DNA of 20,994 nt from positions 1 to 20,994 of the IMG/VR virus record IMGVR_UViG_3300032397_002834; one strand, written 5' to 3'. Shown piece after piece: positions 5,940-18,383 of this stretch. The first letter of the stretch is position 1; the number at the start of each line of letters is the position of its first letter. This DNA is from a virus. The notes under the pieces were generated by a model. The model did no database searches, was not told where the DNA came from, and was given only the letters and a program-made list of their open reading frames with translations. The position numbers and the translations under genes were made by a program.

Positions 5940-6358
5940 TACTCCGCCTCTTCCTGGCCGGGGTAATTGTCTTCCGCCCGATAACTCGGTTTGGCGGGCG
6001 GCGGCTGCGGCTGCGGCTGCGCGGTGTGGAAATACTTGACGTTGATGCCGAGCACGCAGAGGTCGGCGGGCAGGCCCCATTTTTCCGGCGGGGTGAGGTG
6101 GATGATCTCGGCGCGGCAGGCGTTGCCGGAATACTGCCCGGTGGTCGGGTCCCACTCGCGCAAAATCACGGTGTCGCCGACCTGGTAGTCTCGGTCCGCG
6201 CGCCGGATTTCGTAACGCTTGGTGAAGTTCTTGAGCATGACGAACTCCGACGGCCAGATTTTCAGTTCGTGGATGCGCTCGCCGCCGGGGCCGGACTGCG
6301 CCGGCAGGCGTGACGCCTGCACCCCATGGACCGCGCATTGTTCCCGTTTCTCGTCCAT
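5939..6358 (-). CDS. DUF3850 (ASCH/PUA-like) protein
   Basis: A 139-residue protein. Residues 31-105 carry the DUF3850 pattern: HELKIWPSEF, then KRYEIRRADRDYQVGDTVIL, REWDPTTGQYSG and a C-terminal LGI. DUF3850 belongs to the ASCH/PUA-like group, thought to bind RNA or modified bases, and is frequent in phages. The Pro/Gln tail (TAQPQPQPPPAKP) is probably disordered. ATG 6358 follows AGGAGG by 8 nt. The first 30 residues are non-conserved, and part of them is encoded by a perfect palindrome (6304-6320), suggesting an insertion into the 5' end. A role in RNA control or in protection of modified DNA would be inference. Confidence 0.85.
   Translation of the reverse strand: MDEKREQCAVHGVQASRLPAQSGPGGERIHELKIWPSEFVMLKNFTKRYEIRRADRDYQVGDTVILREWDPTTGQYSGNACRAEIIHLTPPEKWGLPADLCVLGINVKYFHTAQPQPQPPPAKPSYRAEDNYPGQEEAE
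6304..6320. repeat. CGT-G-ACG palindrome, member 1
   Basis: GCAGGCGT, a central G, then ACGCCTGC gives a perfect 8-bp stem, followed by ACCCC. It is read in frame in the DUF3850 gene (minus strand). It belongs to the family at 9569, 9798, 10290 and 18336. Confidence 0.8.
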
Positions 6359-6385
6359 CGTTTTTTCCTCCTGTGGTTGCGAGCG

Positions 6386-6844
6386 TTATTCGTTGTCGAA
6401 CAAGTCGGGCTGTCTCTTGTCCGACGCCTTGACCATCTCGCGGGCTCGCGCCACCTCGGTCAGGCAGCGGTCCGCGCATTCGAGCGCCTGGGGTTTCTCA
6501 ATTTCGCCGTCGATGAAGTCGAGCAGCTTCTGAGAGAATTCAGCGAAAATTTTCTGGAGCTTGATAACGTCCTCGGGCCGCATCGCCCGGTTGCGCGGGA
6601 TTTTGATGGTGACGAAGCCCAGGGAGAGGGCGAGCGCCTGCAGGATGCGGTAGTCGCGGGTGAGCTGCATGAGCAGCGCGAGCTGGTGGGGTTTGAAGTA
6701 GGGACGCTTCTCGTCTTCCTCGGCCGGGCTCGGGTTGGCCGCTTTGTAGAAGGCCGAGGTGCTCATGCCGAGGGCCTCGGCGAGCTGCTCGACGGAGAGC
6801 TTCGATTCGCGGACCGTGCGGGCAATAATCTTGGCTAACGTCAT
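6386..6844 (-). CDS. Phage CII-like regulator (Phage_CP76 type)
   Basis: A 152-residue HTH protein. I chose ATG 6844 (MTLAKIIARTVRESKLSVEQ) because AGGAGG lies 8 nt upstream; the longer open frame to 7159 runs antisense to another gene. An HTH lies at about residues 17-38 (VEQLAEALGMSTSAFYKAANP). The following HQLALLMQLTRDYRILQALA block is typical of phage regulatory CII family proteins, which bind DNA as oligomers and control early promoters. The C-terminal half is helical. It is the first gene of the packed leftward operon and probably regulates it. I see no convincing sigma-70 promoter just upstream on this strand. Confidence 0.75.
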   Translation of the reverse strand: MTLAKIIARTVRESKLSVEQLAEALGMSTSAFYKAANPSPAEEDEKRPYFKPHQLALLMQLTRDYRILQALALSLGFVTIKIPRNRAMRPEDVIKLQKIFAEFSQKLLDFIDGEIEKPQALECADRCLTEVARAREMVKASDKRQPDLFDNE

Positions 6845-6912
6845 CGGCAAAACCTCCTGTAATTTGCAGACCGGGCGGGAACCACCTGTGCAGACACAAC
6901 CGAAAATTGCAG

Positions 6913-6942
6913 TTGACGGGCGGGGGCGGGGACGGCTAGAAT
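6913..6942 (+). promoter_or_regulatory. Promoter for the gene at 6949, predicted leaderless
   Basis: TTGACG (6913-6918) and TAGAAT (6937-6942) are separated by 18 bp, five and four or more matches to the sigma-70 boxes. The ATG begins 6 nt after the -10 box, so the transcript should start at or next to the start codon. There is no spaced ribosome binding site. Confidence 0.6.
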
Positions 6943-6948
6943 CGGGGT

Positions 6949-7326
6949 ATGAATCGAGAGGAAGCGATTGTGCAGATCGGCCGCTTTTTTGTCGGGCTGG
7001 CGACCGCCGCGCAGAAGGACCGGGCGAAGACCTTCGTGCTGGCCATGCCGCCGCCGGAGCGCGTCCGGTTTCTGATGGAGGGTAAGCAATTGGCCGCTTC
7101 TCTATTCGCCCGGGTGGTGGGCGACTACATGACCGGTTATGCCGAGCGCATCGAGCCACTTCCGCCCGGCGAGCAGGCGCTCCTCGTCAACTGGCTGGAG
7201 ATCGCATCCGACGAAGAGCTTCTCGATGAGAGCGCCAACGCGATCGGGGCCAGGTTGATTGCCGGCGAGGTCCCGGACCGCACCCGCGTTTTTGCAATTG
7301 TCCTTGATCGGATGATCTTGAGATGA
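6949..7326 (+). CDS. Unknown 125-residue protein facing the early operon
   Basis: This mostly helical protein (MNREEAIVQIGRFFVGLATA...) has high third-position GC in the plus frame, as its neighbours do. No motif was recognised. The sequence alternates charged helices with Pro turns (MPPPERVRFL, EPLPPGEQALL). It is the only plus-strand gene left of the repressor and ends 2 bp from the convergent Ner-like gene, so leftward early transcription from 7529 would cross it antisense. It could be a lysogeny-phase gene with its own promoter. A 76-codon minus-strand ORF (7102-7332) lies opposite its 3' part, with a perfect ribosome binding site, and remains an alternative. Confidence 0.65.
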   Translation: MNREEAIVQIGRFFVGLATAAQKDRAKTFVLAMPPPERVRFLMEGKQLAASLFARVVGDYMTGYAERIEPLPPGEQALLVNWLEIASDEELLDESANAIGARLIAGEVPDRTRVFAIVLDRMILR

Positions 7327-7332
7327 CTTCAT
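7102..7332 (-). CDS. Possible antisense ORF coupled to the Ner-like gene
   Basis: A 76-codon ORF (MKSSQDHPIKDNCKNAGAVR...) starts as ATGA on the stop of the 7329-7529 gene and has AGGAGG 5 nt upstream of its ATG. It lies entirely opposite the 3' half of 6949-7326 with codons aligned to that gene's codons, which is the usual pattern for an antisense shadow. The start signals are as good as any in the operon, so it is recorded at low confidence. Confidence 0.3.
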   Translation of the reverse strand: MKSSQDHPIKDNCKNAGAVRDLAGNQPGPDRVGALIEKLFVGCDLQPVDEERLLAGRKWLDALGITGHVVAHHPGE

Positions 7333-7529
7333 GCGGCCTCCTGATTTAAAAGGCGTTCGACTGATATGCCGGTGAGTTGGCTGATGACGGCGGCGACCTT
7401 GAGAGATGAATGCTGGCCGGAAATGAACTGACTGACGTTCTGGTGTCTGCAGTGGGCGGCCCGGGCAATTTCTTGCTGCGTGATTCCGCGGCGTTTTAGG
7501 GTGGCGAGTAAATAATAACGATCACTCAT
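7329..7529 (-). CDS. Small HTH regulator, Ner/Cro-like
   Basis: A 66-residue protein consisting of one XRE-type HTH: LKRRGITQQEIARAAHCRHQ, then NVSQFISGQHSSLKVAAVIS and a short GISVERLL end. This size and position, divergent from a larger HTH repressor, match Cro or Ner, which repress early and repressor promoters. ATG 7529 follows AAGGAGG by 6 nt. A good leftward promoter lies just upstream. Its transcript can continue into the transposition operon, at the cost of crossing 6949-7326 antisense. Confidence 0.8.
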   Translation of the reverse strand: MSDRYYLLATLKRRGITQQEIARAAHCRHQNVSQFISGQHSSLKVAAVISQLTGISVERLLNQEAA

Positions 7530-7550
7530 GCCGGCCTCCTTGCAAATTCA

Positions 7551-7566
7551 AGCCTAAAGAAAGGCT
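7551..7566. promoter_or_regulatory. Inverted repeat at the leftward promoter start site
   Basis: AGCCT and AGGCT flank six A/G-rich bases. The element covers the -10 box and probable start site of the leftward promoter, so it is a candidate operator for the repressor or the Ner-like protein. Confidence 0.45.
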
Positions 7567-7590
7567 ATCAGGATTGCTTATTGTTGTCAA
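7562..7590 (-). promoter_or_regulatory. Leftward early promoter
   Basis: On the minus strand, a perfect -35 TTGACA (7590-7585), a 17-bp spacer and a -10 TAGCCT (7567-7562) precede the Ner-like gene by about 30 bp. The first 14-bp operator-like repeat lies inside the spacer. Confidence 0.65.
7570..7583 (+). promoter_or_regulatory. Operator-like direct repeat O1
   Basis: AGGATTGCTTATTG differs from the copy at 7601-7614 at one base. It lies in the spacer of the leftward promoter, where a bound regulator would block it. Confidence 0.6.
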
Positions 7591-7612
7591 GAAAAAAAGA
7601 AGGATTACTTAT
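7584..7612 (+). promoter_or_regulatory. Weak rightward repressor promoter
   Basis: TTGTCA (7584-7589), a 17-bp spacer and a poor -10 ACTTAT (7607-7612) would start RNA within a few bases of ATG 7621. The -35 overlaps the leftward -35 back to back. A weak, regulator-dependent and nearly leaderless promoter resembles lambda PRM (established analogy; the function is inferred here). Confidence 0.45.
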
Positions 7613-7614
7613 TG
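7601..7614 (+). promoter_or_regulatory. Operator-like direct repeat O2
   Basis: AGGATTACTTATTG matches O1 at 13 of 14 positions, 31 bp downstream (about three helical turns). It overlaps the -10 of the rightward promoter. Confidence 0.6.
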
Positions 7615-7620
7615 GGCACA

Positions 7621-8028
7621 ATGCAAGACCGTCTCCGATCACTCCGAGGGGATGTTTCGCAGAAGGATTGGGCCGAGAAATTAACCGGCTTCAGCCAGAG
7701 CTACATTTCTCAGGTCGAGAGTGGAGTTGTTAAAAATCCCAGCATCGCCTACTTGATGAAAATTTCCCTGATTACCGAAGTCAATCTTCACTGGCTGCTG
7801 ACCGGCGAGGGCGAGGCCAAGCGGCTGGCGGCGAAGGCCACAAAAAAGATTACCGACCTTGACCGCGCTGAGTTAATATGTTCGTATATCGACGAGATGG
7901 GTTGCGGGTATGAAGCCCGCGAGGTGGTGAAGAACCTGATCCGGCTGGCGGTGAAAGATCACCGGACCCGCGACGAGGTCATCAGATACTTCGAGTTCCT
8001 GGAATTCAAACGGAGGCACGAGCCATGA
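7621..8028 (+). CDS. HTH repressor of the phage switch (CI/c-like)
   Basis: A 135-residue protein. An N-terminal XRE-type HTH (residues 3-60) reads DVSQKDWAEKLTGFSQSYIS, then VESGVVKNPSIAYLMKI, ending in the typical NLHWLLTGEGE. The rest is helical with no peptidase or LexA-like features, so SOS cleavage is not expected. An open frame extends to a TTG at 7612, but ATG 7621 fits the promoter better. No ribosome binding site precedes it, which fits a leaderless mRNA. It is divergent from the Ner-like gene across two operator-like repeats and overlaps the next gene by ATGA. It most likely maintains lysogeny. Confidence 0.8.
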   Translation: MQDRLRSLRGDVSQKDWAEKLTGFSQSYISQVESGVVKNPSIAYLMKISLITEVNLHWLLTGEGEAKRLAAKATKKITDLDRAELICSYIDEMGCGYEAREVVKNLIRLAVKDHRTRDEVIRYFEFLEFKRRHEP

Positions 8029-8195
8029 AGAAATGTCCGTGGTGCGCGAGCGAGATCAATGACGAGGCCATCGTCTGCCCGGTCTGCAAGAAGGACCCGA
8101 ACCTTTCGCGGGAGGACCGCCGCTACCGAATTCTGTGGTTGCTGATCGCGGGCGCGGTCGCCATTTTTGTGGTCTGGTTTGTCAAACAGTTCTAG
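8025..8195 (+). CDS. Zinc-ribbon, single-pass membrane microprotein
   Basis: A 56-residue protein missed by length cut-offs. Residues 4-22 form a zinc ribbon with two CxxC pairs (CPWC and CPVC). A charged linker (KKDPNLSREDRRYR) follows, then one membrane helix (ILWLLIAGAVAIFVVWFV) and a KQF end. The soluble zinc end should face the cytoplasm by the positive-inside rule. It overlaps the repressor stop as ATGA (8025-8028), so it should be made with the repressor in the lysogen. A superinfection-exclusion or membrane-signalling role would fit that expression but is inference. Confidence 0.8.
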   Translation: MKKCPWCASEINDEAIVCPVCKKDPNLSREDRRYRILWLLIAGAVAIFVVWFVKQF

Positions 8196-8223
8196 GCGAA
8201 AAACGCTTCCGACCAGACCAAAC

Positions 8224-8238
8224 TTATCACGGTGGTAA
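8224..8238. promoter_or_regulatory. Imperfect copy of the TTAyCACGGTGGTAA palindrome
   Basis: The core TTATCACGGTGGTAA differs from the copy at 8282-8296 at one base. Similarity outside the core is weak (CCAAAC on the left, TGGTT on the right). Its centre is 58 bp from that of the perfect copy. Confidence 0.55.
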
Positions 8239-8274
8239 ATGGTTCCGGACTAGGTAAAACCCGCCCCCCTCCAG

Positions 8275-8303
8275 GCCAAAGTTACCACGGTGGTAACTTT
8301 GGC
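8275..8303. promoter_or_regulatory. Perfect 29-bp palindrome (operator or terminator-like)
   Basis: The arm GCCAAAGTTACCAC is followed by a single central G and its exact complement. No T-run follows on either strand, so a protein-binding site is more likely than an intrinsic terminator. It sits between the repressor unit and the late operon, where a late regulator could act. Confidence 0.65.
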
Positions 8304-8532
8304 TGGAAGCCGAAAATCATTCAAATCCGTGCTTCTAACCCCCTGATTTAATTCGGGCGACCATCCGGCCGCGCCCGGCCTATTTTCTTCTATCCCATCG
8401 AAATATCACGTCAATACCGCCGAAAACTAATCTTTCTCATTTTATCCCCTGATTCACTCCGCCCGCTCTAGTGTTACCCCCTCCCGCGAAATTATCTGCA
8501 TACTCCCGCGTGCGTGTTTCATACCTCCTGGA

Positions 8533-8567
8533 GTCCCGGAGCGGGCTGGGGCGGCCCGCTCCGGGAC
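8533..8567. repeat. Strong hairpin just upstream of the endolysin gene
   Basis: Perfect 14-bp arms (GTCCCGGAGCGGGC and its complement) flank a 7-base G-rich loop. It ends 22 bp before the chosen endolysin start. It is followed by A residues rather than T residues on the plus strand, so it is not a terminator in the late direction. Confidence 0.75.
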
Positions 8568-8589
8568 AATGAAAAAAACGAGGGAGCCG

Positions 8590-9201
8590 ATGGAAGAAAA
8601 AAAACTGATCGTCATCGACGCCGGGCACGGCGGCCGGGACCCCGGCGCAGTGGCCGACAACGACCCCGGCCCGAAGGTCGACCTGGTCGAAGAAGAAGAC
8701 ATCAACCTCGCCGTCGCGCTGGCCGCGCAACGCGCCCTGGTTACCGCCGGGTTCGACGTGGCCCTCACCCGCTCCGACGATACCCACCCCTCCAACATCC
8801 AGCGCGTCCACCTCTCCAACCGCCTCGGCGCGGTCGCCTACGTGGCCGTTCACTGCAACGCCAGCCTGAACCCGGCCGCCCACGGCTGGGAGGTGCTGTA
8901 CGGCAACGGCTGTCGTGGCGGTCAGGCGCTGGCCGAGCAGCTTGCCAAGGCGCTCGAAATTGAACTGCCCATCTCCGCCCGCCCGCGCGCGGTCTTGAGC
9001 GAGGCCGAGGTCGGCCGCGGAACCAACTGGCGGCTCCGGGTCCTGCACGAAACCCTTTGCGGCGCGGCGCTGATCGAGGCCGGGTTCCTGACCAACCCCG
9101 CGGACCGGGCCTTCCTCATTACCGGCGCCGGCCAGCGCCGGATCGCCGAGGCCATCGCCGAGGGCGTGGCCCTTTACCTCGCTGCCCAGGAGGAAAAATG
9201 A
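8590..9201 (+). CDS. N-acetylmuramoyl-L-alanine amidase (amidase_3), endolysin
   Basis: A 203-residue zinc amidase cleaving the amide bond between MurNAc and the stem peptide. Expected residues are present: H13 in DAGHGG, E36, H88 in VAVHCNAS, and catalytic E163 in ALIEAGFLTNPAD. The protein is only the catalytic domain, with no signal peptide or wall-binding repeat. I chose ATG 8590 because GAGGGAG lies just upstream; an ATG at 8569 directly follows a strong hairpin and has no ribosome binding site. It opens the late operon, as lysis genes do in Mu, though Mu uses a muramidase. It overlaps the next gene by ATGA. Confidence 0.92.
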   Translation: MEEKKLIVIDAGHGGRDPGAVADNDPGPKVDLVEEEDINLAVALAAQRALVTAGFDVALTRSDDTHPSNIQRVHLSNRLGAVAYVAVHCNASLNPAAHGWEVLYGNGCRGGQALAEQLAKALEIELPISARPRAVLSEAEVGRGTNWRLRVLHETLCGAALIEAGFLTNPADRAFLITGAGQRRIAEAIAEGVALYLAAQEEK

Positions 9202-9605
9202 AACTCACTCCCGAGACCGTCAACCTCATCGTCATCCTCATTACCATCCTGCTGCCCGCGCTGGTTCTGGCCGTCATCCAGATTCTGCGGCTGACCCGCT
9301 GGGGCCGGGCGAACAAGACCAATCTCGACCAGGCCGAGGAGCAGGTGCGTTATGCACAAACGATCCTCCAGCACCAGGCCCGCGCGCTGGAAACCGTGGT
9401 CGAGGCGGTGGAGCGGGCGGACGCCAAAGCCGTCACCCTCCCCAAGCCGCCCACGCCTGCCGCCGCCGTCCGCGCGGTGATGACCGAACTGGAGGCCTCC
9501 GCCCAGCCGGAGGAAATGAACGCCTGGCAGAACGCCGTCGCCAAGGTGCGGGCGAAACTCGCCGCCGAGCAGCGTGACGCTGCACCCTCAAAGCCGAGGT
9601 CGTGA
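9198..9605 (+). CDS. Single-pass membrane protein of the lysis cassette (holin or spanin-like candidate)
   Basis: A 135-residue protein with a short N terminus, one strong membrane helix (VNLIVILITILLPALVLAVI, residues 8-30), then a basic stretch and a long coiled-coil helix (AEEQVRYAQTILQHQARALE...). AGGAGG lies 5 nt before ATG 9198, which overlaps the endolysin stop. The topology (N-terminal anchor plus periplasmic or cytoplasmic coiled coil) fits a holin accessory or an inner-membrane spanin, but no family motif decides. The C terminus (EQRDAAPSKPRS) is partly encoded by a palindrome (9569-9583). Confidence 0.7.
   Translation: MKLTPETVNLIVILITILLPALVLAVIQILRLTRWGRANKTNLDQAEEQVRYAQTILQHQARALETVVEAVERADAKAVTLPKPPTPAAAVRAVMTELEASAQPEEMNAWQNAVAKVRAKLAAEQRDAAPSKPRS
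9569..9583. repeat. CGT-G-ACG palindrome, member 2
   Basis: GCAGCGT, G, ACGCTGC, followed by ACCC, 20 bp before the stop of the membrane-protein gene. The 15-bp unit is identical to member 4 at 10290-10304. Confidence 0.8.
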
Positions 9606-9706
9606 TGCACAACGCGGTCGACTGGAACCTCGTCGGCCTGCTCTGGACCTACGCCGCGGCTGCCTTCGTCGCCGGCGTGATGATCTCCCGCCCGAGGCCG
9701 CGATGA
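9605..9706 (+). CDS. 33-residue membrane microprotein
   Basis: ATG 9605 overlaps the previous stop (TGATG), and its TGA overlaps the next start as ATGA. The peptide MHNAVDWNLVGLLWTYAAAA continues to a short basic end (RPRPR). One hydrophobic helix of about 20 residues with a positively charged C terminus resembles very small holins or antiholins, but the family cannot be named. The perfect fit between coupled genes supports it as real. Confidence 0.6.
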   Translation: MHNAVDWNLVGLLWTYAAAAFVAGVMISRPRPR

Positions 9707-9864
9707 AGCACACCCGCGATATCGAGGCGCTCGACCTGGCGGACTCCGCCCTCGCCCGCATCAGCCGGGTCGAGAAAATGATCGACGACTTTCTGGGGCA
9801 ACGTGACGTTGCATCCGAAAAACCCAAACCGCAACTCCGAGTAATTCAAGGAGGCAAATCGTGA
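9703..9864 (+). CDS. Small soluble protein of 53 residues
   Basis: The sequence begins MKHTRDIEALDLADSALARI and ends RVIQGGKS. It is a helical N-terminal half (ISRVEKMIDDFLG) followed by a segment encoded by a palindrome (QRDVAS) and a Lys-rich tail. It starts on ATGA at the previous stop and overlaps the next start (GTGA at 9861). The function is unknown. It may be a partner of the flanking membrane proteins. Confidence 0.6.
   Translation: MKHTRDIEALDLADSALARISRVEKMIDDFLGQRDVASEKPKPQLRVIQGGKS
9798..9812. repeat. CGT-G-ACG palindrome, member 3
   Basis: GCAACGT, G, ACGTTGC, followed by ATCC, read in frame in the 53-residue gene. Its outer arm bases differ from members 2 and 4 but pairing is kept. 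Confidence 0.8.
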
Positions 9865-10289
9865 AGGACCTCACCCCGCTGAGCATCGCCCAGTACTGGA
9901 CCGACAAGGCCGACGACGCGCGCAAGCACGCCGCCGCGGCCCGGAGCGAGAACGCGAAAAAGTTCTGGCTCAACCTGGCCGCGATCAACGACACCCTCGC
10001 CGCCCACACCATCAAGCAGGAGACGGTCGACCGGCTCAACGACATGGCGAAGGAAGGCAGCGACGGCCTCAAGGGCTTCGTGCTCGCCGTCATCCTGGGC
10101 GAGGAAGGCCGGGAAAAAATGGAGGCGCTCGGCGGTTCCTCCCAGATTTCCGAACGCGCGGCCTTCGAGTTCGGCCTCAAGGTGCGTCCGGTCGTGCGCG
10201 ACTGGCTCATCGGCCAGCTCTTCGGCGCCGCCGGCCTGCCCGGCCTCATCAAGGTCCTGCTCGACTGCCTGAAGAAGGCGACGCCGTGA
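9861..10289 (+). CDS. Unknown late protein, 142 residues
   Basis: It starts at GTG 9861 with AAGGAGG 6 nt upstream, overlapping the previous stop. The N-terminal 60 residues are helical and charged (IAQYWTDKADDARKHAAAAR...). The C-terminal 35 residues are hydrophobic and amphipathic (WLIGQLFGAAGLPGLIKVLL), which suggests membrane association. It could belong to the lysis cassette or be an unrelated accessory protein. No known family was recognised. It ends directly at a palindrome (10290). Confidence 0.7.
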   Translation: MKDLTPLSIAQYWTDKADDARKHAAAARSENAKKFWLNLAAINDTLAAHTIKQETVDRLNDMAKEGSDGLKGFVLAVILGEEGREKMEALGGSSQISERAAFEFGLKVRPVVRDWLIGQLFGAAGLPGLIKVLLDCLKKATP

Positions 10290-10332
10290 GCAGCGTGACG
10301 CTGCACCCATTCGGGTGCCGGTCATGACCGGC
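10290..10332. repeat. Three abutting hairpins over a gene start
   Basis: In order: GCAGCGT-G-ACGCTGC (10290-10304, family member 4, immediately after a TGA stop), GCACCC/GGGTGC with an ATTC loop (10303-10318), and the perfect 16-bp palindrome GCCGGTCATGACCGGC (10317-10332), whose centre is the ATG at 10324. Confidence 0.85.
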
Positions 10333-10698
10333 GGCTTCTGGTCGGCGGTCCCGCCCCAGGCCTGGAACTGGGGTCCGGCCTTCATCATTCTGATCGGCAT
10401 CTTCGTTCTGGCCCTGATGGGCGGCCGGGGATTTTCCCGGTTGATAGGCCCGGTGCTGGAGAAGTTCATCAAGGCCCAGGAACGCCAGGCCGATGCGATG
10501 ACGCGGCAGGCGGAGTCGATGAACCACCTGGCGGTTTGCATTGAGGGGCAGGCGGAGAAGACGGCCTTCCAGAACGAGCGGGTGATGGTCAGCCTCGAAT
10601 GCCTGCACAACGAATACAAGGCCTTCCGCGAGGAACTCGGCGACCTGATCGACGAGGTCAGGGTGCTGCACAAAAAAGAGGTATCCGATGGAGCATGA
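10315..10698 (+). CDS. N-anchored coiled-coil late protein (DUF2730-like position)
   Basis: A 127-residue protein with an N-terminal membrane helix (FIILIGIFVLALMGG, about 22-38) and a long helix (LEKFIKAQERQADAMTRQAE... to the end) predicted as coiled coil. Mu-like phages often have such a membrane-anchored coiled-coil protein before the terminase genes (for example DUF2730 proteins). That match is by layout, not by motif. The start is uncertain: GTG 10315 or ATG 10324, both buried in hairpins and without a ribosome binding site. It overlaps the next gene by 11 bp. Confidence 0.7.
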   Translation: MPVMTGGFWSAVPPQAWNWGPAFIILIGIFVLALMGGRGFSRLIGPVLEKFIKAQERQADAMTRQAESMNHLAVCIEGQAEKTAFQNERVMVSLECLHNEYKAFREELGDLIDEVRVLHKKEVSDGA

Positions 10699-11002
10699 TT
10701 CCAAATGGGTGCGGAGGAAAATTCTCCTCGTCCTGCATGCCCGCCACCCGCACTACGTCCGGGACGATGAGCTGCAGGTGCTGCTCCGCGACCAGGGCTG
10801 CACCCTCGACGCGCGCGAGCTGTCGAGCACGCTCACCTTCCTAGAGAACTGGCCGAACTATGGGCGCGGCTACATCCACATGAAGGAGATCCCGGGCAAG
10901 CGGCTGGCGGCGCGCGGCTTCGAGAGCTGCATCACCCCGCTCGGTCTCAACCTGCTCGACCCCACCACCCCCGACACCGACGAGTGCGTGGCGGAGTTTT
11001 AA
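10688..11002 (+). CDS. Winged-helix protein of the Mu-like pre-terminase region
   Basis: A 104-residue protein. The order of helices (RRKILLVLHARHP, DDELQVLLRDQG, ARELSSTLTFLENW), then a short strand (GYIHMKEI) and a late ITPLGLNLLD is that of a winged helix in which a T-x-x-G-x-x-LL motif closes the domain. Similar wHTH proteins (VpaChn25_0724 type) occur at this place in Mu-like phages. GAGG lies 7 nt before ATG 10688. The next gene starts on its stop (TAATG). A DNA-packaging or regulatory role is inferred. Confidence 0.7.
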   Translation: MEHDSKWVRRKILLVLHARHPHYVRDDELQVLLRDQGCTLDARELSSTLTFLENWPNYGRGYIHMKEIPGKRLAARGFESCITPLGLNLLDPTTPDTDECVAEF

Positions 11003-11547
11003 TGCCCAAGCCCCGCCGCAGCCCCGCCGAACGGCGCTCCGCCTGGGAGCGGTACGTCTTGCGCGGCATCGCCCTGGAGGTTATCGCCATCGGCAACCTC
11101 GACGACGAGGGCGGGGGCCACGCGGCGATCCCGCTCGGCACGCTGAAACGCTGGGCGGCCTCGGGTTACGAATCCCCCGACAAGAAATCCTGGCACGAAC
11201 AGCGCGCGGCGATCGCCCGCGACCAGGCCAACATCACCAGCCGGATGTATGCCCTGGCGGGCAAGACCCTCGACCAGGCCATCAAGTCCGGCGACTTCAG
11301 GGACGTGATATCGGCCGTATCGGCCAAGCGCGCGCTCGACGGCAGCGGCGACGCGGAACTCCGCGCGGTGCGGGTCGAGTTGGGGCGGGAAAAATTGAGC
11401 GCCCTCCGGGCGAAGCGCGAGGCCGCCGTCAAGGCGGAGAGCGCGGTCAAGGCCGTCACCGGCCGCAAGGAACTGACCGCCGAACAGCGGCGGATGATCC
11501 GCGACATTTACGGGCTGGCCTCGGACGATGCGGAGGCCTCGGCATGA
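11002..11547 (+). CDS. Terminase small subunit-like protein
   Basis: A 181-residue protein starting MPKPRRSPAERRSAWERYVL at ATG 11002, with GGAG 6 nt upstream. An N-terminal HTH-like region (residues 8-55, with IPLGTLKRWAASGYES) is followed by a long helical part (ITSRMYALAGKTLDQAIKSG...). This layout and its place before the large terminase match Mu gp27/DUF1804-type small subunits, which recognise the packaging site. It overlaps the large subunit gene by ATGA. The assignment is supported mainly by position and overall layout. Confidence 0.75.
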   Translation: MPKPRRSPAERRSAWERYVLRGIALEVIAIGNLDDEGGGHAAIPLGTLKRWAASGYESPDKKSWHEQRAAIARDQANITSRMYALAGKTLDQAIKSGDFRDVISAVSAKRALDGSGDAELRAVRVELGREKLSALRAKREAAVKAESAVKAVTGRKELTAEQRRMIRDIYGLASDDAEASA

Positions 11548-12860
11548 AGCCGATCATCAACCTCTACGACTGGCAAAAGTTCTTTATCCAGAGCCGCGCC
11601 CGGTTCGAGATTTTGAACTGCGCGCGCCAGGCGGGAAAGTCTTTTGCCCTCGCGCTCAAGCACACCCTCCGCGCGGTCGAGCGGCCGCGCGACCTGGAGG
11701 TGCTGCTGTCGAAAGGCGAGCGGCAGTCGAAGGAACTGATGGAGAAGTGCAAGATGCACGCGCGGGCGATGGACGTGGCCCTGGCCGACTGGCAGGAAGA
11801 TGTTTACAAGGTGCCCGACTCCGACACCGAATACCAGCGGCTCACCATCGTCTTCGATAACGGCTCCCGGATCATCGGGCTGCCGGCCAACCCGGACACG
11901 GCTCGCGGCTACACCGCCAACATCGGGCTCGACGAGTTCGCCATCCATAAAAACTCGCGCGACATTTTCACCGCGCTCTTTCCGTCCCTCACGCGCGGGT
12001 TCTCGCTCACCATCTCCAGCACGCCGAAGGGGAAGCAAAACAAGTTTTACGAACTGTGGAACAACAAAAAGTACGAGAAGCACCTGGTCACCATTGAGGA
12101 CGCGGTGGCCCAGGGGCTGGACCTGACCGACGAGGATGGGCAGCCCTGCACGGTTGAAGACCTGCGCCAGGCGATGGGCGACGACGAGGCCTTCGAGCAG
12201 GAATACATGTGCCGCTTCCTCGACGAGGCCACGGCCTGGCTGACCTACGAAATGATCTCCGAGGCCGAGCACGAGCAGTGCGCGGAACTGGCGGCGGCCG
12301 GCGTGGGTGATGTCTTTGCCGGGATCGACATCGGCCGCAAGCGGGACCTCACCGTCTACATCTCGCTCAAAAAACTCGGCGACGTGAAGTGGATGCTGCG
12401 GAAGGTCGAACTGTCGAAGACGAGTTTCAGCGACCAGCGCCGCGCGCTGAGCGCCTTCATCCGCGAGGACGGCTGCCGGCGCGTGGCGGTCGATGCGACC
12501 GGACTCGGCATGCAGCTCGCCGAGGAACTTGAAACCGAGTTCGGGCCGATGGTCGAAGGCATCACGTTCACGGCCGCCAACAAGGAAGCCATCGCCAACG
12601 AAACCAAGCGGAGCTTTGAAGACAAGCTCACGCGGGTCTTCATCGACGACAAACTCCGCGAGGATCTCCATCGCGTGAAGCGCGTGGTGACGAGCACCGG
12701 GAACTTCCGCTTCGACGCGGAGCGCACCGAGGACGGACACGCCGACCGGTTTTGGGCGCTGGCCCTGGCCGAGCACGCGAGTTGCGAGCCGGAGGGCGCG
12801 CAGTTTATCGGCGTGATGCCGGGCGGAGTGGACATCTACGGGAAGGAAGCAAGGAGTTAG
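11544..12860 (+). CDS. Terminase large subunit (Mu gp28-like)
   Basis: A 438-residue packaging motor and nuclease. The ATPase half has a Walker A-like CARQAGKS (26-33), Walker B with catalytic glutamate IGLDEFA (127-133), and a coupling motif ISSTPKG (157-163). The C-terminal RNase H-like nuclease has Asp candidates D262 (FAGIDIGRKRDL), D317 (VAVDATGLG) and D401 (DGHADRFWALALA). The length is typical. It drives headful packaging of phage DNA into proheads. GGAGG lies 8 nt upstream of the start. The 3' end (GGAAGCAAGGAGT) is shared with the end of the protease gene. Confidence 0.93.
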   Translation: MKPIINLYDWQKFFIQSRARFEILNCARQAGKSFALALKHTLRAVERPRDLEVLLSKGERQSKELMEKCKMHARAMDVALADWQEDVYKVPDSDTEYQRLTIVFDNGSRIIGLPANPDTARGYTANIGLDEFAIHKNSRDIFTALFPSLTRGFSLTISSTPKGKQNKFYELWNNKKYEKHLVTIEDAVAQGLDLTDEDGQPCTVEDLRQAMGDDEAFEQEYMCRFLDEATAWLTYEMISEAEHEQCAELAAAGVGDVFAGIDIGRKRDLTVYISLKKLGDVKWMLRKVELSKTSFSDQRRALSAFIREDGCRRVAVDATGLGMQLAEELETEFGPMVEGITFTAANKEAIANETKRSFEDKLTRVFIDDKLREDLHRVKRVVTSTGNFRFDAERTEDGHADRFWALALAEHASCEPEGAQFIGVMPGGVDIYGKEARS

Positions 12861-13140
12861 GAGATGCGGCGATAAGCCGCCGGCGGCGAAAGCCGCAACA
12901 GGGGACCGCCAAGCTGGCCTGTGCAGGCGGCGGACGCGACCGGAGCGGTGGGGCCGGGAGCAAAAAATGAGGGGGTCCGGGGGGAATCATTCCACCCGGG
13001 GATGAAAAGGACGGTTGTGATGGCCCCCAGATTTACGCGAGAAGGCCCCCAGGAACGTTCCTGAGGCCGGTCGGGGGTCGGGGGCGCAGAAACGGGCAGG
13101 GTCGAGAGGCTGAGGCCGCCACGGCGGGCCAGGGGTAAAA
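12861..13140. other. Non-coding, repeat-rich gap between terminase and portal
   Basis: In 280 bp no ORF longer than about 20 codons is credible. The gap is very G-rich and holds GGCCCCCAG twice (about 13022 and 13044), the perfect palindrome AGGAACGTTCCT (13051-13062), GCGGCG/GCCGC inverted repeats near 12880, and a near-perfect palindrome at 12977-12999. The packed neighbours make it unusual. It could hold a packaging (pac) site, an RNA, or repeat insertions. Confidence 0.55.
12977..12999. repeat. GGGGAATCATTCC palindrome, copy A
   Basis: Eleven-base arms around a central C with one mismatch. It shares the core GGGGGAATCATTCC with the perfect palindrome at 18384-18404. Confidence 0.7.
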
Positions 13141-15489
13141 ATGGGAAAGCGTAAAAAGGAACTGAAACGGGCGGCAAAAATGGAGGCGAAGGCCGCGGTG
13201 GCCGAACTCGCCCGGGTCGCCGCCTCCGCCGGCGGGTTCGTCCCGCCGGCCGTGGCCCGTTCCTCGATCGAGACCCCAACCTCATTGTCCGGCGCCATGT
13301 CCGGGTTCTCCAGTTCGTTTTCTACCCTCTCGCCCGTCATCCCGCCGTCGTACCTGGACTTCATTCAACTGATGGCCGTGGTCAACCCGATCATTGCCGA
13401 CATCGTCCGCAAAAACGTCACCCTCTCCAACACCGGGCACTCGCTGATCGTGACCGACGCCCCGGACCGCCAGGTCGAGATCGCGGTCGCGGAATTGAAC
13501 CGGCTGGCCCCGATCATCTATCCGGGCTCGGCCGGGGTGGACGGCCTGTTCGGACATTATTTTTACCAACTCGCCACCACCGGGGCGCTCTCGTCGGAGG
13601 ACGTGCTCACGGACGACCTGCGCGGGGTCCGGCGCGTGGCCCTGGTGCCGGTGCGGAGCATCGCCCACAAATACGAGGACGGCCAGTACGTCCAGTACCA
13701 GACCGGGGCGCTGAGCGCCGCCGGCGGCGTCCGGCTGGACCCGGCCACTTACCACTATTTCGCGGCCGACACGCTGGAGAACTCGCCTTACGCCATCCCG
13801 CCGCTGGTCTCGGCCATCCGCGCGGTGCTGATCCAAAACGACATGATGGACAGCTTCGAGTTCATCATGCGGAAGCTCGGGATGATGGGACTGGTGGTGG
13901 CCAAGGTCACGCCGCCCCCGCGCAAGTCCGGCGAGAGCGACAAGGAATACATGCGCCGGGTGCGCGACTACCTGGGCGACGTGGGCGCGGCCCTGGGCGA
14001 CAACTACCGGAAGGGGATGCTGGTCTTCCCCAACGACATCGACGTTGAAAACAAAGCGGTCAGCACCGCCGGCGCGGCGTCGGTCGAGTCGCTGATGAAG
14101 ATCATCAACCAGAACATTTTTTCCGGAGCGCATTCCGACCCGGGGTTGCACGGGTTCAACTACGGGACCACCGAGACCTTCGCGCGCGTGGTGTATACCG
14201 AGATGGTCAACGGCCAGGCGTTCAACCGCCTGTTGGTCAAGCGCCGGCAGGAGGCGACATATCGTCTGCACCTGCTGCTCGCTCTGAAAGGCCTGCAGCC
14301 CAACGTCGCGGTGGTGTTCAAGGACCCGCCGTCGCTCAACCCGAACATAGAGGAGCTGGCCGACACCTACAAGGTTTCCAACACCATCAAAAAAGTCCAG
14401 GGCGGATACATCACCCCGGACCAGGGCGCGCAGGAGATGGGCTACGACTCGGCCGCCGACCCGGAGCGGGCGCTGATGGCGCCGGCCGCCGCAGGTGGGT
14501 TGCCGTTCGGGCTCTCCCGGGATCGCCGAGCGCCAGCTCGGGCCTTCCGGTTCAATGCCCACCTGCAACGCTACGAGTTCGCGCGACCGAGGATCGAAGT
14601 CCAAGGAGCAAGGAGCAAGGAGCAAGGGAGCGCTCGCCCCTGCGGTTGCGGCCGCGGTCACGTCAACCTCGAAAAGCCGGACACGGACGAGGCCGCCTGG
14701 ATCGATGACTACCTGGCCGCGATCGCGCCCGGCTCCGAGAAGGCCCGCGCCGCGGCGGTCGCCGCCATCGACGAGCTGCTCGCGGGCTCACGCGCGGCCG
14801 ACTTCACCCCCGAGACGTTCGCCGACGCGGCCTACGCCGCGATCAAAAAATCCTACGGCGAGGCCTTCGCCGCGGCCGGGGTAGAGAAGTTGGTCGAAGA
14901 GCAGCTCTCGGACGCCTACAAATTTTATCGGACGGCGGACACGTCGCTGCTCGGCGCGGATGGCGTCGCCGGGTTCGCGTTCGACTCGGTTGACATGCGC
15001 TCGGTCGAGTTCCTGGTGAAGACCGATAAATATTATTTCTCCTCGTTCGTCGATAACGAGTCGATGCAGTCGCCGATGAAGTCCTTCCTCTCCGACAAGT
15101 ACCTGGAGCACGGCGAGGGCATTTTCGGCCGCACCAACCCGGACACGCTGACGGAATTCCGCAACCTGTTTGACGACCAGTTGACGTCGCTCAGCGACTC
15201 CGAGGTCCAGCGGATCGTCGATACCAGCGTCGCCCGCACCCGGAACTGGGGGCACATCGGGCAGCTCAATGAGGCCGGGTTCGACGAGGCTGTCATCCTC
15301 GCCGGCGTCTCCCCCTGCGCCGAGATCTGCCAGCCGATGATCGGCAAGACCTTCAAGGTCGTTGTCGCCCGCGATCGCATCGAGGAGATGCTCGGGATGA
15401 GCGAGGACGCCTTCCTCGACGCGCTCCGCGACGGCACGGACTTTCCCCCGTTTCATCCCAACTGCCACTGCCGTTTAGGAGCCAAATGA
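13141..15489 (+). CDS. Portal protein fused to a Mu F-like minor head protein
   Basis: A 782-residue protein with two parts. Residues 1 to about 470 look like a portal (long helical and beta segments, VNPIIADIVRKNVTLSNTGH early, and a late YITPDQGAQEMGYDS typical of portal C termini). Residues about 510-782 are a Mu F/SPP1 gp7-type head morphogenesis domain, ending in the expected signature: C726-A-E-I-C730, GK, then PPFHPNCHC (769-777). The two are usually separate genes (Mu gp29 and gp30). The join (residues 487-497) is encoded by an (AAGGAGC)n repeat, in frame. AGGGG lies 5 nt before ATG 13141. The next gene starts on its stop. Confidence 0.88.
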   Translation: MGKRKKELKRAAKMEAKAAVAELARVAASAGGFVPPAVARSSIETPTSLSGAMSGFSSSFSTLSPVIPPSYLDFIQLMAVVNPIIADIVRKNVTLSNTGHSLIVTDAPDRQVEIAVAELNRLAPIIYPGSAGVDGLFGHYFYQLATTGALSSEDVLTDDLRGVRRVALVPVRSIAHKYEDGQYVQYQTGALSAAGGVRLDPATYHYFAADTLENSPYAIPPLVSAIRAVLIQNDMMDSFEFIMRKLGMMGLVVAKVTPPPRKSGESDKEYMRRVRDYLGDVGAALGDNYRKGMLVFPNDIDVENKAVSTAGAASVESLMKIINQNIFSGAHSDPGLHGFNYGTTETFARVVYTEMVNGQAFNRLLVKRRQEATYRLHLLLALKGLQPNVAVVFKDPPSLNPNIEELADTYKVSNTIKKVQGGYITPDQGAQEMGYDSAADPERALMAPAAAGGLPFGLSRDRRAPARAFRFNAHLQRYEFARPRIEVQGARSKEQGSARPCGCGRGHVNLEKPDTDEAAWIDDYLAAIAPGSEKARAAAVAAIDELLAGSRAADFTPETFADAAYAAIKKSYGEAFAAAGVEKLVEEQLSDAYKFYRTADTSLLGADGVAGFAFDSVDMRSVEFLVKTDKYYFSSFVDNESMQSPMKSFLSDKYLEHGEGIFGRTNPDTLTEFRNLFDDQLTSLSDSEVQRIVDTSVARTRNWGHIGQLNEAGFDEAVILAGVSPCAEICQPMIGKTFKVVVARDRIEEMLGMSEDAFLDALRDGTDFPPFHPNCHCRLGAK
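14603..14627. repeat. (AAGGAGC)3.6 tract at the portal/Mu F junction
   Basis: Three full heptamers and a partial one, perfect, encoding GARSKEQG. All frames of the 21-bp period are open, so insertion of this repeat can link coding regions without stops. It matches the tract at 5248-5266. Confidence 0.85.
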
Positions 15490-16805
15490 TGAAGCCATTC
15501 TCCGACCGTTTGCAGATGTTCGTTGGCGGGGTGATCCACAACCTGGCCCTGCCCCGCATCACCCGCCGGGACGGCACCGAACTGGCCGGCTCGCCGACCT
15601 TCTGGCCCCGGATCATGCCGGCGGCGGGCTCGCCGGTCGTCGAGCCGAACATGGCGACCCGCTTCCTGAGTCCGGACCCCGACAGCTTCGTCTTCGCCAA
15701 GTTCCGCGGGCTGTCGACCATCATGCTCGACGCCTGGTCGGACTGGTACGAGGCCCCGGTGGTGCTCGACTTCACCGAGCCTGGGATGTTGGAGGCGGCG
15801 GTGCCGCTGGCGAAAGGCATCGCGGTCTACCCCGACCACTCCCACGGCGTGGCCGACTGGATCGGCGTGGTCACCAATTCCTGGTGGGGAGCGAATGACC
15901 CGGGCCTGCCGGTCCCCGGCATCGACCTCGAACTTCGCATCGACAGCTTCGTCTCGGACGTTGCCCGACGCGTGGCGATGGGCCTGCTGTCCGACCTGCC
16001 CACCGTCCGCTCCGGCAGCTTTGGGATGCGGAACTACCTGGAGATGTCCCACCCCAAAATGCTGATCGAGGAGTTCGTCCTGCGGCAGGGCGAGATCGTC
16101 GGCGGGCAGATCGTGCGCTTCATTGTCCGCGAGATTATCGAGCTGGGGGAATACTCGCTCGTTTACAAGGGGGCCGACCCCCTGGCGGTGAAACTGGCGC
16201 GGTCGCGCGAGCGCGTGGCCGTGCCCAACATCAACCCCCAACAGCCGGGCGAGGCGGCAGCGCCGCTGGCGGGCGACTCGCTGACCGGTAAAGAGGAGGA
16301 AGGCATGAAGATTTTTGGTGATGCGCAGCTCGCCCGGGTGGGGACCATCCTGGGCGCGGCTCCGCCGGTGGAAGACGACCAGATCGGCGAGGCGCTGCTT
16401 GCGCGGGCGGAAAAACTCGCCGCCGACACCGTCGAGTTGATGCGGAAAATCGCGGACCTCACCCCCAAGGCCGCCGCCGGCGACGTGCTGCTCGCGGCCG
16501 AGCGGGCGGAGGTCGTCCGCCTGGCCAAGATCGTCCAGGGCGATTCCGCGCCGGTGGCGCTCAAGGCCCTGGAGGACTCGATCAACGCCGCGGGAGCCGG
16601 CCGGCTCGTCGAGATGCACGCGGAGTTCGCGAAGCTCGCCGACGCGAAGCTCCCGCTGCGTTGCGCGGCGTGCGGGTCCACCACCGTCGAGCGCCGGAGT
16701 TCGGTCGAGCAGACTCCGGAGACGGGCCTCCACAAAACCCCGGCGTCCGCCGACCCGGCCGCCGCCAGACTGTCCCGCCGGTACGGGGACGGAAGCAAGG
16801 AGTAA
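15486..16805 (+). CDS. Prohead protease with C-terminal scaffold region
   Basis: A 439-residue protein. The N-terminal half resembles serine prohead proteases: YPDHSHGVADWIGVVTN with H118 or H120 as candidate catalytic His, GLPVPGIDLEL, then RSGSFGM with S176 or S178 as candidate Ser, and a closing REIIELGEYSLVYKGADPLA that matches the usual E-x-S-L-V...A-(N/D)-P end. Residues 240-439 are Ala/Glu-rich helices typical of a scaffold, plus a CxxC pair (CAAC) near the end. AGGAG lies 5 nt before ATG 15486, which overlaps the portal stop. Mu makes protease and scaffold from one reading frame, as seems to be the case here. Confidence 0.85.
   Translation: MMKPFSDRLQMFVGGVIHNLALPRITRRDGTELAGSPTFWPRIMPAAGSPVVEPNMATRFLSPDPDSFVFAKFRGLSTIMLDAWSDWYEAPVVLDFTEPGMLEAAVPLAKGIAVYPDHSHGVADWIGVVTNSWWGANDPGLPVPGIDLELRIDSFVSDVARRVAMGLLSDLPTVRSGSFGMRNYLEMSHPKMLIEEFVLRQGEIVGGQIVRFIVREIIELGEYSLVYKGADPLAVKLARSRERVAVPNINPQQPGEAAAPLAGDSLTGKEEEGMKIFGDAQLARVGTILGAAPPVEDDQIGEALLARAEKLAADTVELMRKIADLTPKAAAGDVLLAAERAEVVRLAKIVQGDSAPVALKALEDSINAAGAGRLVEMHAEFAKLADAKLPLRCAACGSTTVERRSSVEQTPETGLHKTPASADPAAARLSRRYGDGSKE
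16305..16805 (+). CDS. Nested scaffold protein from an internal start
   Basis: Inside the protease gene and in the same frame, GAGGAGG (16293-16299) lies 5 nt before ATG 16305, giving a 166-residue product MKIFGDAQLARVG and onward. It consists almost entirely of Ala/Glu/Arg-rich helix (ALLARAEKLAADTVELMRKI...), the character of a scaffold. The arrangement parallels Mu I/Z and lambda C/Nu3, where a start in the 3' part of the protease gene makes the scaffold in excess (established for those phages; inferred here). Confidence 0.75.
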   Translation: MKIFGDAQLARVGTILGAAPPVEDDQIGEALLARAEKLAADTVELMRKIADLTPKAAAGDVLLAAERAEVVRLAKIVQGDSAPVALKALEDSINAAGAGRLVEMHAEFAKLADAKLPLRCAACGSTTVERRSSVEQTPETGLHKTPASADPAAARLSRRYGDGSKE

Positions 16806-16808
16806 CTC

Positions 16809-17228
16809 ATGTCCGAGCAAACCCAGGACCACGGCATCCGCCAGGACGCGCCCGGCAGCTACGTCTCCCTCGGGGTGACGATGGCCGCCGCCGACTACCC
16901 GGTGAACGGCCTCGTCAACATCACCGACGACTACACCGTCACCCTCATCGTCGCCGCCGACAAGAAGTCGGTCGGCGAGGTCACCCAGACCGCCCACGTG
17001 GCCGGCGGCAAGGGCACCATCGCCACCCGTTTCCGCCGCATCCTGCACGACGCCAACGCCAACGCGGCCGTCGCCGCGGGCGCGGGCGCGAAAATCGTCG
17101 CGGACGTCGCCGGCGTCCAGACCTTCGACACCTTCACCGAGGGGGCCGATGGCGAAATCGAAAGGGTCGGGACGTTCCTGACCCACGCCGACGCGCAGGG
17201 CGACAAGGTTGACATCGGCCTGTACTAA
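16809..17228 (+). CDS. Head decoration or stabilisation protein
   Basis: A 139-residue Ala/Val/Thr-rich beta protein with no membrane helix or Cys, located between protease and major capsid genes, where decoration proteins (for example DUF2190 or lambda D types) lie. The N terminus is polar and flexible (MSEQTQDHGIRQDAPGSYVS), as in trimeric decoration proteins, followed by short strands (TVTLIVAADK, GEVTQTAHVAGG). The ribosome binding site AAGGAG belongs to the repeat-like GGAAGCAAGGAGT at the end of the preceding gene. The assignment rests on context and composition. Confidence 0.65.
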   Translation: MSEQTQDHGIRQDAPGSYVSLGVTMAAADYPVNGLVNITDDYTVTLIVAADKKSVGEVTQTAHVAGGKGTIATRFRRILHDANANAAVAAGAGAKIVADVAGVQTFDTFTEGADGEIERVGTFLTHADAQGDKVDIGLY

Positions 17229-17229
17229 C

Positions 17230-17247
17230 CCGCGACTGAAGTCGCGG
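17230..17247. repeat. Palindrome right after a stop codon
   Basis: CCGCGACT, GA, AGTCGCGG: a perfect 8-bp stem starting one base after the TAA of the decoration gene, followed by CCAC. There is no T-run, so it is not a classic terminator; it lies 30 bp before the major capsid gene. Confidence 0.8.
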
Positions 17248-17276
17248 CCACGAGAAAAAAAAGGAGACGGAAAAAC

Positions 17277-18335
17277 ATGAGCAGAAATTTCAAGGGGAAA
17301 ACCCCGGAACAGATGGCCGGCGAGATCAAGCTCGGCGGCTGGAAGAGTTTCGGCACCTATTGCCTGGGCGCGCTCGGGGCCTCCCCCGCGGACGTGCTCC
17401 GGGCACTGGCGATCAACCTCTCCGAAGTCCAGGTCTCGGCCCTGGTCACCGACCCGGCCCTGACCTGGCTCTATCCCGAGATGGTCAAGGAGGCCGTGCT
17501 CGAAGGCTTCGAGAACCCCGAGACCGCCTGGTGGCAGGACCTGATCTTCTCCCAGGCCGCGGTCAACGCCAAGGACATCCGCCAGCCGAGCTTCACCCTC
17601 AACCAGGACGCCGGCCCGCAGGAGACGCAGGAGGGCGAGTCGATGCAGGTGACCTTCATCACCTCCGGCTCGCGGTCCGTCACCCTGCGCAAAAACGCCG
17701 AGGCCATCGGTCTGACCTACGAGGTCACCAACTTCGCCACCGTGGACCAGGTGCAGATCTGGACCCGCCAGTACGGCTGCAACATGGCCAGCAAGCTCAA
17801 CGCCTACGCCGTCGACCGCCTGGTCAACGGCGATCAGGCCGACCTCTCGATGGCCGCCGCGGTCATCGGCGTCGCCTCCGTGGCCGACGGCTTCACCTGG
17901 AAGGACTTCCTCCGGGTGTGCGCGGTGATGGCCAAGCTCGGCAACCCCATCGACTTCTGCATCGTCGACCTCGCCGAGTACATGGACCTGGCCAACATGG
18001 ACGAGTTCAAGCGCCTGGCGGCGGGCGAGGCCCTGACCAAACTCAACCTGAAGACCCCGGTGCCGGCGGCGCTCAACACCTTCATCCACTCCGGGGTCGG
18101 CGCGGACAAGTTCCTCTTCGGCAGCAAGTCCAAGGCGCTGTGGAAGGCGAACGCGATCCCGCTGCTGATCGAGACCGACAAGGACATCCAGAAGCAGACC
18201 AACTTGGTGGCGGCCTCGGAGACGGCGGACATGGTCAACATGCTCCGCACCGCCCGCGTCATCGTCGACCGTACCCTGGAGTACGCGGCCAACCCGTTCC
18301 CGGCCTGGATGACCCCGGCCGGCGTGACGATGTAA
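17277..18335 (+). CDS. Major capsid protein (HK97 fold likely)
   Basis: A 352-residue protein with AAGGAG upstream of ATG 17277. The N-terminal region is helical (MAGEIKLGGWKSFGTYCLGA...), followed by a domain with an E-loop-like segment (QDAGPQETQEGESMQVTF). Then come LRKNAEAIGLTYEVTNFA and a C-terminal LVAASETADMVNMLRTARVI. This layout and its size fit Mu-like and other HK97-fold capsids that start with a short delta-domain-like segment. Its place after protease, scaffold and decoration genes supports it. Codon use is extremely GC-rich, as expected for a highly expressed gene of this genome. Confidence 0.85.
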   Translation: MSRNFKGKTPEQMAGEIKLGGWKSFGTYCLGALGASPADVLRALAINLSEVQVSALVTDPALTWLYPEMVKEAVLEGFENPETAWWQDLIFSQAAVNAKDIRQPSFTLNQDAGPQETQEGESMQVTFITSGSRSVTLRKNAEAIGLTYEVTNFATVDQVQIWTRQYGCNMASKLNAYAVDRLVNGDQADLSMAAAVIGVASVADGFTWKDFLRVCAVMAKLGNPIDFCIVDLAEYMDLANMDEFKRLAAGEALTKLNLKTPVPAALNTFIHSGVGADKFLFGSKSKALWKANAIPLLIETDKDIQKQTNLVAASETADMVNMLRTARVIVDRTLEYAANPFPAWMTPAGVTM

Positions 18336-18350
18336 CGAGCGTGACGCTCG
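18336..18350. repeat. CGT-G-ACG palindrome, member 5
   Basis: CGAGCGT, G, ACGCTCG, followed by ACCC, directly after the TAA of the capsid gene. Confidence 0.8.
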
Positions 18351-18383
18351 ACCCGAAGTGACGGACTCTGAATAACCGAGGGT

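Follow-up and report, generated by a model that had tools for sequence, protein, structure and literature searches.

What places five palindromes with one core and differing arms in a single phage genome fragment? The question is raised by IMG/VR virus record IMGVR_UViG_3300032397_002834, of which the whole stretch of 20,994 bases (the window) was analysed. An initial annotation, made from the letters alone, had described there a fixed CGTGACG core between complementary arms, followed by ACCC or ATCC. In our judgement the five palindromes are probably copies of a single family of non-autonomous mobile elements that are very small and resemble repetitive extragenic palindromic (REP) sequences. 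Scattered bacteria and many phages carry the family at high copy number, loci with and without the element exist, its stem variants go almost exclusively with particular tags, and copies are frequently docked at stop codons.

Five palindromes with one core

All five palindromes were recovered as described, each with the core, the complementary arms and the four-base 3′ tag:

6304..6324, + strand: element 1, GCAGG-CGTGACG-CCTGC + ACCC (5-bp arms), inside the N-terminally extended part of a DUF3850 gene on the − strand
9569..9587, + strand: element 2, GCAG-CGTGACG-CTGC + ACCC, near the C-terminal end of an open reading frame (ORF) that stops at 9605, read as Q-R-D-A-A-P
9798..9816, + strand: element 3, GCAA-CGTGACG-TTGC + ATCC, read as Q-R-D-V-A-S in a small ORF ending at 9864
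10290..10308, + strand: element 4, GCAG-CGTGACG-CTGC + ACCC, starting 1 nt after the TGA stop of ORF 9861-10289
18336..18354, + strand: element 5, CGAG-CGTGACG-CTCG + ACCC, beginning 1 nt past the TAA that ends the head protein gene

The palindrome at 6304-6320 has 5-bp arms and the remaining four have 4-bp arms; ACCC follows four of them, ATCC the GCAA copy. All five lie on the + strand, and no CGTGACG with 4-bp arms was found on the − strand of the window. The form N4-CGTGACG-N4′ thus occurs five times, well above chance (mean 0.06, maximum 2, in 300 dinucleotide shuffles). In addition, this single core accounts for 5 of the 12 perfect 15-nt odd palindromes of the window, and in shuffled sequences never more than two shared a core.

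The same annotation had placed two copies directly after stop codons and three in frame inside genes. Those at 10290 and 18336 do follow stops, and those at 9569 and 9798 are read in frame, as ..EQRDAAPSK.. and ..GQRDVASEK.. close to the C-terminal ends of two small ORFs; the copy at 6304 may lie outside the real coding region of the DUF3850 gene. Comparison of the window with Rfam gave no match at gathering score, and in 6200-10500 just chance-level matches off the elements.

A 19-nt unit in bacteria and phages

Copies from other genomes define a unit of 19 nt, NNAR-CGTGACG-YTNN-AYCC, preceded by a purine (R) in almost all viral and most clostridial copies. It consists of a 15-nt perfect palindrome, a 7-bp symmetric stem around a central G, plus the 3′ tag AYCC. 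As RNA, it was folded into a 6-bp stem with a UGA triloop.

The exact 19-mer GCAGCGTGACGCTGCACCC (GCAG..ACCC) occurs in over 116 bacterial-genome stretches, mostly from Oscillospiraceae/Ruminococcus and other Clostridia, with some from Verrucomicrobiota and Planctomycetes. The degenerate pattern, for which the reversed-pattern control gave 0, matched 161, 66 and 43 times in the genomes of three species that belong to a single Verrucomicrobiota genus. Three further genomes, reached via Clostridia/Oscillospiraceae loci, gave 29, 23 and 22 copies. The sequence covered was about 1.87 Mb for genome G001 and 0.75 Mb for G002. In a sample of 240 Verrucomicrobiota genomes, most carry 0-1 copies, a patchy distribution as for a mobile repeat. 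In IMG/VR, three 19-mer variants were found in 27, 32 and 39 stretches. The richest genome contains many inverted pairs with the tags inside, roughly 20-50 nt apart, that is tail-to-tail like REP dimers. Searching the text of 5.39 million papers for six 15-mers returned no description, which says little, such sequences being often printed in figures. The family is apparently undescribed and widespread in phages, Verrucomicrobia and gut Clostridia.

These distributions bear on the idea that a phage or host protein uses the palindromes as operator-like sites. The stoperators of mycobacteriophage L5 are short sites in one orientation near gene ends; they are protein-bound, phage-specific and not palindromic. 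The window copies are likewise short, in one orientation and near gene ends, and the phage encodes CII-like and helix-turn-helix (HTH) regulators, but the copies are palindromic and not phage-specific. Chromosomes of different phyla contain the same units in numbers from tens to 161, unrelated phages have them as well, and both orientations occur; half-sites and tag vary together, and some inserts lie inside structural genes. We therefore regard operator sites as scarcely credible.

Some phage copies have a second hairpin downstream, for a total of about 42 nt. In one phage group (samples 3300006226 and 3300006045; L415:2105-2150, L424, L439, L447, L450) a second hairpin and then GGGACGG stand 3′ of the CGTGACG hairpin. 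The arms of this second hairpin vary and are mostly paired, and its loop is TGCG, TACG or TTCG (cUNCGg-like). The whole looks like a double-hairpin version of the element. Phage L447 also carries a DUF3800-XI RNA (Rfam, 63 bits; 1774-1821, − strand), and its hairpin weakly matches the cow-rumen-3 RNA.

Other arrangements were seen in bacteria. In G001 (L203, L205, L206, L209) many copies and a second repeat, GATCCTTCGACAAGCTCAGGATGA (a palindrome of the GTCATCCTGAGC... type), at which they are nested, together make up composite tandem units about 85 nt long. At clostridial loci (L085, L116 and others) a truncated half copy often stands directly 5′ of a full copy (GCAGCGTGACG followed by GCAGCGTGACGCTGC), as if left over from abortive copying.

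Loci with and without the element

Two Verrucomicrobiota species were compared over orthologous regions about 85-98% identical. The 66 mapped comparisons gave 38 copies present in both species, 21 absent in one and 7 ambiguous. At three sites the gap was exactly the palindrome plus the tag, 19 nt, and no target duplication was seen there.

Related phages gave a second case. L419, L447 and L439 carry an in-frame insert at one shared position of the terminase gene, and L415 is without it. This insert is made of the element and a second hairpin, about 42 nt, and adds the peptide QRDVASKGAAAQ or QRDAAPNSPAAQ. L415 in turn has an insert near the start of the next gene (portal), absent from L447 and L439. 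The empty-site alleles that the initial annotation had proposed to look for thus exist among relatives, both in the bacterial species pair and in phages. In the evolutionary sense, the elements are mobile.

Variable arms and coupling of stem and tag

The arms that differ yet stay complementary had been taken as compensatory variation, due either to selection on the structure or to an element capturing flanking sequence. Among 13 chromosomal sites that are orthologous and comparable, one-sided changes were counted in 7 stem pairs and two-sided changes in 0. Complementarity is therefore not maintained site by site, and selection on each stem as the cause of variable arms is unsupported at these sites. 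Flank capture was ruled out as well: the 5′ arm is missing from the empty sites, and the entire 19 nt are extra. Neither explanation accounts for the variable arms, which resemble what the copying of variant mobile units would leave.

The tag covaries with the inner stem pair, G-C going with ACCC and A-T with ATCC, and all window copies conform. In IMG/VR, GCAG+ACCC was found in 27 stretches and GCAA+ATCC in 32; with the tags swapped, the counts were 2 and 0 (Fisher p 3e-15). The covariation is also present in Verrucomicrobiota genomes (p 1e-23), and in G008 it holds, with few exceptions, for other outer arms (GAAA, CCAA, CAAG, GAAG). At a single phage site, one phage carries GCAG..ACCC and two relatives GCAA..ATCC, which fits replacement or independent insertion. 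The coupling indicates that something reads stem and tag together, and it puts a strong constraint on the mobilising enzyme.

Docking at stop codons

In Verrucomicrobiota and viruses, 15-30% of the copies start exactly one base after a gene stop, 50-140 times chance. Counted against long-ORF stops, this was the case for 18 of 74 copies in G001 (expected 0.37), 14 of 48 in G002 (expected 0.10), 12 of 67 in a viral set (expected 0.19) and 7 of 35 in a second viral set, gathered subsequently by another query (expected 0.09); in Clostridia abutment was weak (4/93, expected 0.33). Expected values were taken from nearby purine-preceded positions, and ORFs were used for the counts, the crude gene caller being unreliable at high GC. 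The peak is confined to that one position, and docking occurs behind all three stops, TAA, TAG and TGA. By reading their translations, the ORFs upstream of docked copies include a MuA-like transposase, a MuB-like protein, a head protein and a ClpP-like protease. Further ORFs in the same frame are terminated by the TGA of the loop, giving C-termini that end in -AA or -AT before the stop. Many copies lie inside genes or away from stops. A start codon soon after the tag showed a modest enrichment in viruses (14/101, expected 4.3) and none in bacteria.

Copies that are not docked were also inspected for a stop trinucleotide just before them. It was present in 4/58 viral, 1/36 G002 and 6/107 clostridial copies, so that TRR as a gene-independent sequence target is unsupported; in G001 it preceded 17/75, largely in a GGATGA repeat context.

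The main rival to a mobile element arises here. It holds that the hairpins are functional gene-end signals (an mRNA stabiliser, a translation-termination or reinitiation signal, or an RNA-processing site) that selection has put and kept at stops, with spread secondary. The docked copies of the Verrucomicrobiota and viral sets, where only 0.1-0.4 were expected, agree with such a role, as do the ORFs closed by the loop TGA and the folding of the hairpins as RNA. We nevertheless consider it unlikely: orthologous copies gather one-sided stem changes and no compensated ones, many copies are intragenic or not at stops, enrichment is weak in Clostridia, and no T-run lies 3′ of the hairpins. Without a T-run they are not intrinsic terminators either, and no terminator-like site (GC-rich hairpin plus T-run) was found at any element.

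A more particular form of mobility, to which we give tentative and rather low credence, is that the 19-nt hairpin inserts in a manner tied to stop codons as such or to the termination of translation. Copies are docked behind the stops of real genes, and the same trinucleotides are not enriched before viral, G002 and clostridial copies elsewhere; both speak for it. The element would then be targeted by reading frame and would be, to our knowledge, among the smallest mobile elements known.

Mobilisation of the element

If the palindromes are small REP-like mobile elements, as we favour, the phage would have gained its copies from its host, probably a Verrucomicrobiota or similar bacterium. The arms would differ because different variant units were copied in, with no repair of each stem by selection. 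Copying might take place in trans, by a putative enzyme recognising the folded single strand and the tag, as proposed for REP elements. Copies would survive where they are harmless: at gene ends, with a preceding stop or with the loop TGA as stop, or in an open QRD(A/V)A frame. The family accounts for the odd QRDAA/QRDVAS peptides and for the -AA and -AT protein ends in these genomes. In L402, a phage protein (ORF 11276-11857) has an internal QRDAASKPAPASKAAP stretch, which is probably an element-derived peptide, and another element adjoins its stop codon.

Several points weigh against this account. Survival where harmless fails by itself to explain the exact abutment, as any position 1-10 nt behind a stop ought to do equally little harm. 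The with/without comparisons had no outgroup, their direction being unpolarised, and a deletion clearly underlies some of the losses (L386 versus L301). Among the exact 19-nt sites, L388/L210 is possibly a comparison of paralogues, and the right flank of L396/L332 is poorly conserved. The with/without sites come from other phages and bacteria, the window phage being without a close relative. Finally, no enzyme could be linked to the family: Y1_Tnp (PF01797) had no match in carrier genomes G003 and G011, both metagenome-assembled genomes (MAGs) and possibly incomplete, and the tagged element is absent from all 30 loci fetched around Y1_Tnp hits. The initial idea of a REP-like element therefore stands as to dispersal, high copy number and with/without sites, and fails or lacks support as to selection on structure, flank capture and a REP-type Y1 transposase.

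The phage fragment

The window is a fragment of a Mu-like transposable phage, marked as such by its MuB-like gene. It also encodes a transposase, CII-like and HTH regulators, an amidase, a terminase, a portal, a protease and head genes. Located genes are:

843..2312, − strand: MuB-like DNA transposition protein (phrog_296, AAA_22)
2358..4013, − strand: phage transposase (phrog_310)
9861..10289, + strand: 142-aa ORF, its stop codon abutting element 4
11544..12860, + strand: terminase large subunit (Terminase_6N/6C), best relatives 44-48% identical
17277..18335, + strand: major head protein gene (phrog_3922), its stop codon abutting element 5

The terminase shares at most 48% identity with any match found, and no close relatives of the phage were found. 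No CGTGACG element was present in 80 terminase relatives (1 Mb). Phage IMGVR_UViG_3300044712_001970 (L413, L478, L497) has an amidase 47% identical to that of the window and carries several copies, including GCAG, CCAG and CGAG types. Upstream of the amidase gene of the window lies a long perfect palindrome (8276-8302, CCAAAGTTACCACGGTGGTAACTTTGG), not related to the hairpin family.

Comparison with known systems

Mitochondrial double-hairpin elements and yeast mitochondrial GC clusters are very small mobile hairpins of organellar genomes. Our family is like them in its tiny hairpins, and some of its phage copies have a second hairpin with variable arms; the sequences are unrelated. Among the Rickettsia palindromic elements, of which RPE-4 and RPE-6 are CGTC REPs (PMC3733652), palindromes are similarly read in frame within protein genes. 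Sequence and organisms are different, and the peptide here is QRD(A/V)A(P/S).

REPs are palindromes of 20-40 nt with an unpaired tag and form the GTAG and CGTC superfamilies (Di Nocera 2013, PMC3733652). Opitutus terrae, of the Verrucomicrobia, is rich in GTAG REPs; neighbouring ORFs often owe their TAG stop to these, and REPs are located near 3′ ends (PMC3733652). Could the elements simply belong to these superfamilies and be mobilised by REP-associated tyrosine transposases (RAYTs)? Size, tagged palindrome, tail-to-tail pairs, intragenic copies and copies that supply or abut stops are all known for REPs (PMC3733652), and the tail AYCC(A) is reminiscent of the CCA end of CGTC REPs. This resemblance is, however, confined to the tail: the CGTC tag and the AT-AT at the base of an 8-9-bp stem were not found, with just a purine preference 5′ of the stem. 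Nor is there an unpaired GTAG-like tag, the stem being flanked by AYCC (GGRT on the other strand), and neither the two carrier MAGs nor the 30 loci around PF01797 hits linked a RAYT to the family. Membership of either superfamily is accordingly very improbable; lacking the defining tag, the family stands outside both, though REP-like in its working. In the broad sense it behaves as REPs do, a short palindrome dispersed with as many as 161 copies in a genome (reversed pattern, 0), absent in 21/66 comparisons, with three exact 19-nt gaps and the phage terminase insert.

With REPs it shares the tagged palindrome, stem variants that still pair, dimers, clusters, copies in genes and at gene ends, and patchy distribution. 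A REP-like family with its own tag is thereby added across Verrucomicrobiota, Clostridia and phages, and phages are seen to carry such repeats. It differs from REPs by the AYCC/GGRT tag, the fixed centre CGTGACG, the 19-nt unit, the tie between tag base and inner stem pair, its presence in phages and Clostridia, the lack of a RAYT link and docking exactly after any of the three stops. This last feature is sharper than published statements on REPs and gene ends, and makes a precise, testable rule of the vague one that places REPs near gene ends.

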